Of a stretch of 63,151 bases of DNA, positions 43,590-45,389 are shown one piece after another. Location: NCBI GenBank assembly GCA_944371605.1, contig CALVXU010000014.1, forward strand, positions 1 through 63,151, written 5' to 3'. The notes below the pieces were generated by a model. The model was not told the origin of the DNA, made no database searches, and worked only from the letters and a program-made list of their open reading frames with translations. This DNA comes from an uncultured Bacilli bacterium (lineage in GTDB: Bacteria; Bacillota_I; Bacilli_A; RFN20; CAG-288). Position 1 is the first letter of the stretch. The number at the start of each line of letters is the position of its first letter. The translations under genes and the position numbers were made by a program.

Positions 43590-43856
43590 ATGACAAGTTA
43601 CAAGATTACGATTAATGACATGAATGGTCTAACTTCTAGATCAAGTGCTGAACTAGTTGAAGAAGCTAACCATCATAAATGTCACATCACCTTAAAAATT
43701 GAGAACGGCGAAGAGTGCGATCTCAAATCAATTATGAATGTTTTTGCTCTCTCTCCAATCAGTAAAGGTGAGGTTATCACCATTGAGTGCGATGGTGAAG
43801 ATGAAGTCGAAGCTCAAAAAGGTTTCGAAAAACTTTGCAACGAATATCGTTTTTAA
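43590..43856 (+). CDS. Crh-like HPr paralogue lacking the PTS histidine
   Basis: 88 aa. HPr fold length and pattern: MNGLTSRSSAELVEEANHH aligns with the active-site helix of HPr (G-[IL]-H-A-R-P-A), and CDLKSIMNVFAL with the regulatory-Ser region (LKSIMGVMSL). Position 15, His in HPr, is Thr; Arg17 is kept; Pro18 is Ser; the regulatory Ser (Ser47) is intact. Such a protein cannot carry phosphate from Enzyme I but can be phosphorylated by HprK, as Bacillus Crh (Gln15). Role inferred: CcpA co-effector. ATG at 43590 is preferred; a GTG at 43575 would add five residues but falls at the expected transcription start. The leader is about 12 nt. Confidence 0.8.
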   Translation: MTSYKITINDMNGLTSRSSAELVEEANHHKCHITLKIENGEECDLKSIMNVFALSPISKGEVITIECDGEDEVEAQKGFEKLCNEYRF

Positions 43857-43944
43857 AACTTTCTATAGTGATTGTTTTCTTTCAAAATTAGACTACTATT
43901 TTCTAAATATTTGTATATCATAGGCCAATTGATATAGTCGTGTA

Positions 43945-44507
43945 GTTCTCATTTCATTCTATTTATCAGATTTATCATTTAATTTTCCTATCTCAGCTTT
44001 CTTAGCAAAGCTATCTTTAGTCACCTTTATCTTATAAAGTATTAACGTTTAGTTAAGTTGAGAGAATTTCTATATTCAATAACTGGTTTATAGAAATTAT
44101 GTGATAGGATGGATTTAAGGCTAGATTAAATTTAGTTGAAAGTTTTCTGTCATAGATAGAGATAGAAAATAAAAGAAAGATATTCTGATAAAGGGAAACC
44201 TAATAAGATGCTATAGCTATTAGGAAAAGCCCGAATGTTGGGAAGTTTAAGGGACGAGAAGAGAAGTGTCGTTTATCCCGTATGAACATTATGATGGGAA
44301 GAAAGACTATTACGTGTTGAAAGTAGAGACGTTATTTGAGAAGTTGTCGAGAAGGGATGTAGTTGTTGTCGAGATGATACGTCAAACAGCGGTTGTGCCA
44401 AGCGCAATCTGAAGGGAGATAAAACTATTTTAACTACTACTAATGATGAAAGTTCACACGGGTAGACCCAGTTAGCAATTGTTGAATTGTTTAACTGGGT
44501 CTTTTTT
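43945..44507 (+). ncRNA. Probable large structured non-coding RNA (about 560 nt)
   Basis: Between the Crh-like gene and the converging gene at 44506 lie about 650 nt with no ORF on either strand. A promoter TTGTAT (43911-43916)-16-TATAGT (43933-43938) precedes it and a strong plus-strand terminator ends it. The 3' two thirds are purine-rich and contain many hairpins: AATTTCTATA/TATAGAAATT (44065-44099), CCTAATA/TATTAGG (44199-44224), GGGA/TCCC enclosing ACGA/TCGT (about 44251-44279), GGTTGTGC-CAA-GCGCAATC (44391-44409). No tmRNA, RNase P, 6S or SRP signatures are present. Length and layout resemble ornate large RNAs such as ROOL or GOLLD, but I cannot confirm a family. Confidence 0.6.
44464..44507 (+). 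terminator. Strong terminator at the end of the RNA candidate
   Basis: GACCCAGTTA (44465-44474) pairs perfectly with TAACTGGGTC (44492-44501), with an inner AATT/AATT stem, then TTTTTT (44502-44507). It points in the plus direction and touches the stop codon of the converging gene. Confidence 0.9.
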
Positions 44508-44895
44508 ATTGAAAATGACTATTTATTAAATCAGAAAAATAAGAAGATATCTCTTTATATTTTGCCTCTTTAAAAGGTTGCACGCCTTTATAGGCAAAAT
44601 ATGTTTTATCTACATAATCAATAGTGATCATAAACTTAATTGAATAATCTGTAGGATCATCTTCGAATTTATGTGCAAAATAATGTTTATCTAATCTTTC
44701 GGGATCTAATAGACTAGATATTTTTTTGGATAAAGAGGAAAATTCTTCATCCGAAAAATGCTTCTCTTTTTGTTCAAACCCATATTTAAAAACAAGGGAC
44801 TTCTTATTTTGATAATCGATTTCTAACCTGTCGACTTGAGAAATAGCTTGTGAGTTTCTCTTCCAAAAAACAACTTTTTTGATCTGTTTTACCAT
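44506..44895 (-). CDS. Hypothetical protein, 129 aa
   Basis: 129 aa, no signal or TM. Alternating beta strands (KKVVFWKR, SLVFKYGF, YSIKFMITIDYVDKTYFAYKG) with a helical insert (FSSLSKKISSLLDPERL), a compact alpha/beta protein. Its ATG lies inside the preceding gene (7-nt overlap), so the pair is coupled. The two proteins have similar length and strand order after the zinc ribbon of the first and may be paralogous or partners. No family recognised. Confidence 0.7.
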   Translation of the reverse strand: MVKQIKKVVFWKRNSQAISQVDRLEIDYQNKKSLVFKYGFEQKEKHFSDEEFSSLSKKISSLLDPERLDKHYFAHKFEDDPTDYSIKFMITIDYVDKTYFAYKGVQPFKEAKYKEISSYFSDLINSHFQ

Positions 44896-45389
44896 ATATT
44901 AGACTCGATAAAAAATGGCAAAAATAATTTGTCCAATCCAGCTAAATAGGGCGGAAAATCATTGTTTTGAATAGTGATAGTTTCATGATGGTTAAATTCT
45001 AATATTACTTGATAGTAGTCTTTAGATTCATCGATAACCTCAGAGCTCGGCCAATCTAAGATAAAAAAGTTTTCAAAAATGACTTTTTTAAAGGTGCTAA
45101 ACAAGTTTTCAATATTAACTTTTTTATAAGCGAAAGATTTTTGTTCTTTAAATCTAGTAGGATAGAGAATAATACCATCCTCTTTTTTTTGAATTTCAAC
45201 TATTTTATGATCATCTTTTTCAATTTTCTTAAAATAACATGCCTTGAGATCTTGCTCTAATGAGAGAAGATTACTTCCATCATTGACACCAAAATCTTTA
45301 TCACAGTCTTCACAATGAAAACCATGGTTGTGAAAACCCGAATCGCTGAACACAGAAACATTTTCTTTTCCACAATAAGGGCAGATCAT
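44889..45389 (-). CDS. Zinc-ribbon hypothetical protein, 166 aa
   Basis: 166 aa. N-terminal zinc ribbon CPYC...CEDC (Cys 3, 6, 26, 29), then a beta-rich domain (YQVILEFNHHETITIQNNDFPPYLAGLDKLFLPFF). It shares a 4-nt overlap (ATGA) with the upstream pseudouridine synthase gene and 7 nt with the downstream gene: three coupled genes. Function unknown; the ribbon suggests RNA, DNA or protein contact. Confidence 0.7.
   Translation of the reverse strand: MICPYCGKENVSVFSDSGFHNHGFHCEDCDKDFGVNDGSNLLSLEQDLKACYFKKIEKDDHKIVEIQKKEDGIILYPTRFKEQKSFAYKKVNIENLFSTFKKVIFENFFILDWPSSEVIDESKDYYQVILEFNHHETITIQNNDFPPYLAGLDKLFLPFFIESNIW

Follow-up and report, generated by a model that had tools for sequence, protein, structure and literature searches.

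A conserved candidate non-coding RNA with a five-base repeat array beside an HPr-family gene in uncultured Bacilli

The stretch of DNA analysed (the window, 63,151 nucleotides) from an uncultured Bacilli bacterium contains, downstream of an HPr-family gene, a unit of approximately 563 nt (43945..44507, plus strand), which raises the question of what kind of RNA it may specify. The original prediction, made from the letters of the window, described a promoter-terminator unit with no ORF and likened its product to large ornate RNAs such as ROOL, GOLLD and OLE. Both boundaries of this unit could be located. The extended -10 promoter TGATATAGT (43930..43938, plus strand) gives a predicted start at about 43945, and the sequence TTGTAT (43911-43916) lies 16 bases further upstream of TGATATAGT. 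This TGnTATA-type box is kept in 11 of the 12 homologues described below and is poor in G008, while no -35 element is consistent across the 12. The unit closes with an intrinsic terminator (44465..44507, plus strand) composed of the two-part hairpin GACCCAGTTAG-CAATT-GTTG-AATTG-..CTGGGTC followed by T6. The hairpin (44465-44501) together with T6 folds at -20 kcal/mol, and paired changes are seen in both of its halves among nine genomes. The longest ORFs within the unit are 48 and 44 aa, and no frame is kept because the nearest homologue (G012) differs from the window across this stretch by gaps of 4, 2, 4 and 3 bases, which bears out the predicted lack of a conserved ORF.

Conservation and genomic context of the unit

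All genomes compared are metagenome bins of uncultured species, and 12 homologues of the unit are available, one of them partial at a contig end (G009). The unit directly follows the HPr gene in 12 of the 14 same-genus genomes in which the HPr locus was found. Its nearest relative, G012, encodes the entire unit in the same place with 87% identity, the first 250 nt and last 110 nt being more similar to the window than the middle. A terminator-pattern search identified the unit in three additional members of the genus, and inspection downstream of HPr added G004, G005, G002, G007, G008, G013 and the partial copy of G009. The two remaining genomes (G011 and G014) have no unit and carry a terminator immediately after HPr, and in the family's other genera the HPr loci adjoin ordinary genes and lack the unit. 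A scan of GTDB genomes for the HPr gene yielded metagenome bins of Bacilli from rumen and gut, including RUG11704, RUG810, UBA7642, RGIG4442 and SUG800. The homologues range in length from ~110 nt (G005) to ~700 nt (G010), with 500–700 nt in most species, and the two smallest homologues (G005 and G008, ~110–150 nt) end in unrelated terminators.

The gene upstream of the unit in all 12 genomes (43590..43856, plus strand) encodes an HPr-family protein (Pfam PTS-HPr, 3.6e-18). The site of His15 in this protein reads GLTSRSSA, and the Ser46 site (KSIM) is retained. The same pattern is found in each genome of the family, where the sole HPr-like protein detected lacks the His15 site (GLTSR or a similar sequence where GIHARP would stand) and keeps the Ser46 site. 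Due to the loss of the His15 site, the protein would not be expected to carry phosphate for sugar uptake, and it looks Crh-like. Because the adjoining HPr keeps the site of the regulatory serine and not that of the phosphocarrier histidine, a link between the non-coding RNA and carbon status is attractive but unproven. On the other side of the unit are two convergent genes (44506-45389, minus strand) encoding proteins of 129 and 166 aa without Pfam matches, the second with a CxxC zinc-ribbon-like start. They adjoin the locus in several genomes, among them G014, where the RNA is missing. The placement of the unit in a variable zone next to zinc-ribbon genes was half right, since its constant partner is the HPr gene upstream.

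No known RNA family accounts for the unit. With Rfam gathering thresholds applied to the whole window there was no match at 43945-44507, and lowering the cut-off to E = 10 at the locus and E = 1 at the 11 homologous loci gave nothing credible. The covariance models of ROOL, GOLLD and OLE, and those of CsrB, RsmY and RsmZ, had no match in the window, at the locus or at the 11 homologous loci. A tmRNA is rejected, as ARAGORN found neither tmRNA nor tRNA in the window and Rfam found no tmRNA; RNase P RNA is rejected as well, its gene sitting elsewhere in the same genome (226.7 bits). The absence of both signatures had been predicted correctly. A second copy of the non-coding RNA was not found elsewhere in the window genome, and a phage origin is rejected, the sole match among phage records being a 35-base chance match. 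We conclude that the locus very probably holds a conserved non-coding RNA gene, apparently specifying a long, self-terminated RNA unlike any Rfam family. Three features of the locus go beyond the original prediction: HPr as the conserved neighbour, a palindrome over the promoter and an array with a period of five bases.

The pentanucleotide array

The body of the RNA consists of a degenerate array of pentanucleotides, typically GAGAC, that places a G every five bases, with runs such as GAGACGAGAAGAGACGAGATGGGAAGAG. The unit of the array can be written as G, A/G/T, G/T, A/T(C), C/T/A. Across all homologues, a GA has another GA five bases downstream in 179 cases, where 79.7 would be expected (z 12.5). 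The spacings of 10 and 15 are also peaks, and those of 4, 6 and 9 are depleted. Chains of 9–14 units are present in five genomes, and the array is weak in G000, G004, G008 and the partial G009. The window's own RNA is weaker in this respect than its relatives, with eight GA-GA pairs at spacing five against 3.1 expected (p 0.018). The clearest run in the window is GGGAC GAGAA GAGAA GTGTC GTTTA (44251..44275, plus strand); the rest of the repeat-rich region (44276..44400, plus strand) contains scattered GAGAC, GAGAA, GGGAT, GAGAT and GATAC units and differs from G012 mainly by indels.

The array was searched for as five in-phase units in 23 genomes of the family and as six in 279 genomes of the order. 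Chains of six units occur in five of the 279 genomes, all belonging to the same genus; every chain runs in the RNA's sense and, with one exception, lies at the locus. The same search with the pattern written backwards returned zero six-unit chains in the 279 genomes. Six array stretches, taken from homologues other than G000 and G012, fold about as well as their shuffles (z -2.1 to +1.1), so the array body is probably largely single-stranded. Pair alignments show substitution of the unit's first G in 5/114 cases (4%) and of the other positions in 26/113 to 43/113 (23–38%), although alignment of repeats favours G-to-G matches and part of this signal may come from the alignment itself. Adjacent units resemble each other no more than they do once their order is shuffled, and a slippage repeat is rejected on this ground. 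A nearly fixed G combined with dissimilar neighbours is as expected from selection for a repeated recognition site, unlike slippage.

The same motif in transporter leaders

The lone six-unit chain outside the RNA locus belongs to G007, where eight units fall within an intercistronic leader, a stretch of ~45 bases that separates a transporter permease gene from the ribosome-binding site (RBS) of a solute-binding-protein gene. Four units are found at the same leader position in G002, and the orthologous leader of G013 reads GAGGC AGGAC GAGAC GAGAT, its binding protein being 59% identical to that of G002. Because G002 and G007 are close relatives, the leader evidence amounts to about two independent events. 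The binding-protein leaders of G003 and, outside the genus, of G019 and G022 have no array.

A 2.08 Mb contig of G013 was scanned, with approximately 3.5% of it masked. Array matches as strong as that of the G013 leader number about ten per genome on both strands, and the chance of such a match in a given leader of ~75 bases is therefore of the order of 1 in 5,000. When all 923 leaders of G013 were ranked with a profile built without G013, the two highest scores both went to leaders of ABC-transporter binding-protein genes. At the top stands an OppA-type gene (SBP_bac_5) following an OppF gene, and next comes a sugar-type binding-protein gene orthologous to the G002 and G007 case, whose product has no Pfam match and was identified by its lipobox and by its position behind a BPD_transp_1 permease. 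The OppA-type gene with the top leader (853922-855759, L220, minus strand) is split in two frames, through either a frameshift or an assembly error.

The genome of G013 as a whole has no excess of the motif (39 merged array matches against 42 in the control), and its lipoprotein leaders taken together score no higher than the rest (p 0.27), the top two leaders alone standing out. The four-unit pattern outside the locus is likewise about as frequent as in the control. As these weaker arrays do not rise above the control, any regulon would be small, and the motif points to a few specific targets and not to a large regulon. A pentamer run just before the RBS of a PckA-like gene in G003 (L098, ~1470-1521) is not kept in G002 or G008, and pckA was rejected as a shared target. 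Other four-unit matches, at the end of grpE, in repeat proteins and in coding genes, are mostly inside coding sequences at control numbers and were also set aside.

A proposed protein sponge and its alternatives

A motif that the RNA and the mRNA leaders share in one orientation calls for a factor that binds both. Two known RNA-binding proteins were rejected as the reader of the array. The spacing of the units fits TRAP, but PF02081 has no match over the cut-off in 23 genomes of the family, a search in which the Bacillus subtilis control was found. Hfq is excluded in the same way, with no PF17209 match in the 23 family genomes and the control positive in five. The GGA motif of CsrA does not fit GAGAC, the commonest unit. 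With TRAP and Hfq absent and GGA a misfit, the RNA would be a sponge for another protein, as CsrB is for CsrA (PMC7652899).

The favoured reading is that the RNA sequesters an RNA-binding protein that reads the pentamers and that the transporter leaders are the targets of this protein, which we hold to be plausible, if somewhat short of an even chance. The RNA would be transcribed as a stand-alone gene from the promoter just after HPr and would end at its own terminator, and its working part would be an extended, mostly unpaired array whose binding sites place a G at every fifth base. A protein that recognizes specific RNA sequences, neither TRAP nor Hfq, would bind this array and also the shorter arrays directly upstream of the RBS of some genes for ABC-transporter solute-binding proteins, altering the translation or stability of their mRNAs. 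Having more sites, the non-coding RNA would titrate the protein away from the leaders, in a mode like that of CsrB and RsmZ on CsrA and with its sites spaced in a (G/U)AGNN-like manner, as those of TRAP are. The conserved locus with its promoter and terminator, the lack of coding, the array confined to this genus with its near-fixed first G, and the recurrence of the array in transporter leaders are observed; transcription, the reader protein, its sequestration and the direction of regulation are inferred. More tentative is the wider proposal that the genus uses a new RNA-binding regulator working in steps of five bases, with leader arrays controlling the mRNAs of transporter binding proteins and a sponge RNA next to the only detected HPr controlling the regulator; we would sooner expect this to fail than to hold. 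If true, sponge-and-target regulation would extend beyond the systems of CsrA and Hfq to bacteria with neither Hfq nor TRAP, and would be tied to nutrient uptake and encoded next to HPr, a protein of carbon status. The array with its period of five is also a ready-made bait for the reader protein.

CsrB/CsrC and RsmY/RsmZ resemble the RNA described here in being stand-alone and terminated, in repeating many times a short motif that is also found ahead of the RBS in mRNAs, and in the fast change of length and site number. Many motif copies in one terminated RNA are present at this locus, the array being presumably the motif of the protein, and the further trait of a motif in target leaders is clear in a few transporter leaders, with no excess genome-wide. 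CsrB and RsmZ carry GGA motifs in separate hairpin loops, whereas the array here is of the GAGAC type, probably mostly single-stranded and with a period of five. Transporter mRNAs are targets of GcvB-type sRNAs, which are similar in the possible control of ABC solute-binding-protein genes; unlike the case of GcvB, the leaders here carry the RNA's own motif instead of its complement, and there is no Hfq. TRAP binds GAG/UAG triplets with spacers of 2–3 nt (PMC3913778). The spacing in the TRAP-bound leader of the trp operon is close to the GAGNN every five bases seen here, but the arrays have up to dozens of units, GAT, GGG and GTG variants are common, and none is a trp leader.

A second reading, which we regard as unlikely, holds that the unit is a long 3' UTR of the HPr mRNA and that a coated purine array guards this mRNA and the transporter mRNAs from 5' exonucleases. 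It takes as an RNA hairpin the imperfect palindrome ATATCATAGGCCAATTGATAT that spans the promoter (43915..43935, plus strand) and could be an operator, or a 5' hairpin in the case of read-through from HPr. This inverted repeat overlapping the -10 box reads ATATCAT-TGGCC-ATGATAT in most homologues and has other letters with the palindrome retained in G004, G005, G002, G007 and G008; there is no second copy elsewhere in the window genome. Its arms covary between species (ATATCAT/ATGATAT, CCAT/ATGG, ATCATA/TATGAT) in the manner of an RNA hairpin, as the 3' UTR would have it. The space behind HPr in G001, G004 and G005 would hardly fit a terminator, if at all, a terminator follows HPr at once in G011 and G014, which are without the RNA, and the leader arrays are themselves intercistronic. 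Against these points, G013 has a terminator-like hairpin and T run between HPr and the RNA, and the extended -10 is kept in all but one homologue. Co-transcription with HPr would also be compatible with the sponge.

It is decidedly unlikely that the RNA is a base-pairing sRNA, in which the C/U-rich box CCCUUUCU near the 5' end would mask the Shine-Dalgarno (SD) sequence of its targets and the purine array would be a platform or spacer. The box, CCCUUUC(U), lies in the purine array and is present in 9 of the 12 homologues, including the two shortest, within ~30–60 nt of the predicted start. However, it is absent from G000, G012 and G004, and so from the window's own RNA. Base pairing would also leave unexplained both the array and the occurrence of the same, not the complementary, motif in the transporter leaders, and the 23 family genomes have no Hfq. 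The CCCUUUC(U) box resembles the 3' tail of 16S rRNA.

Rather improbable is a satellite-like repeat, neutral or selfish, retained where the intergenic sequence tolerates it. The array length changes fast, as between G002 and G007, and the unit was lost or never gained in G011 and G014, both of which would suit such a repeat. The dissimilar neighbouring units and near-fixed first G described above speak against it, as do the strand bias, the conserved ends and the recurrence of the motif in transporter leaders.

The ornate, self-assembling RNA of the original prediction now appears very improbable. ROOL, GOLLD and OLE (PMC12286853) are similar in size range, in the promoter-terminator unit and in palindromic loops (GCUAUAGC/GCCAUGGC), and most species have forms of 500–700 nt. 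The 563 nt fold at -146.6 kcal/mol against -120.4 +/- 6.9 kcal/mol in shuffles (z -3.8, with 0 of 100 shuffles as good). The window contains a predicted hairpin CCTAATA-N12-TATTAGG (44199..44224, plus strand; from the sequence and pair alignments) with the palindromic loop GCTATAGC at 44210-44217, and GCCATGGC occupies a comparable place in G001, G004, G006 and G010. This loop is reminiscent of RNA dimer contact loops and is possibly a dimer contact. Its eight letters differ between the window and L003, L004, L005 and L043 with the palindrome kept. In contrast to ROOL, GOLLD and OLE, the RNA has no conserved fold and is not located by tRNA arrays or phage genes. The consensus of a nine-homologue alignment has 22 pairs, comprising one short 5' helix and the terminator hairpin, and a global conserved fold is rejected because the structure common to the nine is confined to the ends. 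The covariation by which the original prediction proposed to be checked is seen at the ends, and the body has no common structure. Pairwise folding within subgroups gave some compensatory changes, so subgroups may have local helices. The lack of any Rfam match, the species versions of ~110–150 nt and the roughly sevenfold range in length also disagree with an ornate RNA. If the sponge is correct, an unstructured repeat RNA may look ornate from its size and predicted folding alone.

That the 3' part encodes a translated peptide of 9–13 residues is barely credible, since AUG is almost absent, subgroups differ in their peptides, a frame of this length often stays open by chance and the shortest forms have none. 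The SD-like box GAAGGGAG (44411..44418, plus strand) is kept in long homologues as AGAAGGGAG, AAGGAGG or AGGAGG, ~60 nt upstream of the terminator, and is followed 8 nt later by a 12-codon micro-ORF with the non-AUG start ATT (44427..44465, plus strand), which is probably not translated. Relatives have similar frames of 9–13 codons that begin with AUC, AUU or UUG at a constant spacing of ~8 nt from the box and end at the terminator, and three differences between G010 and G001 in this region are synonymous.
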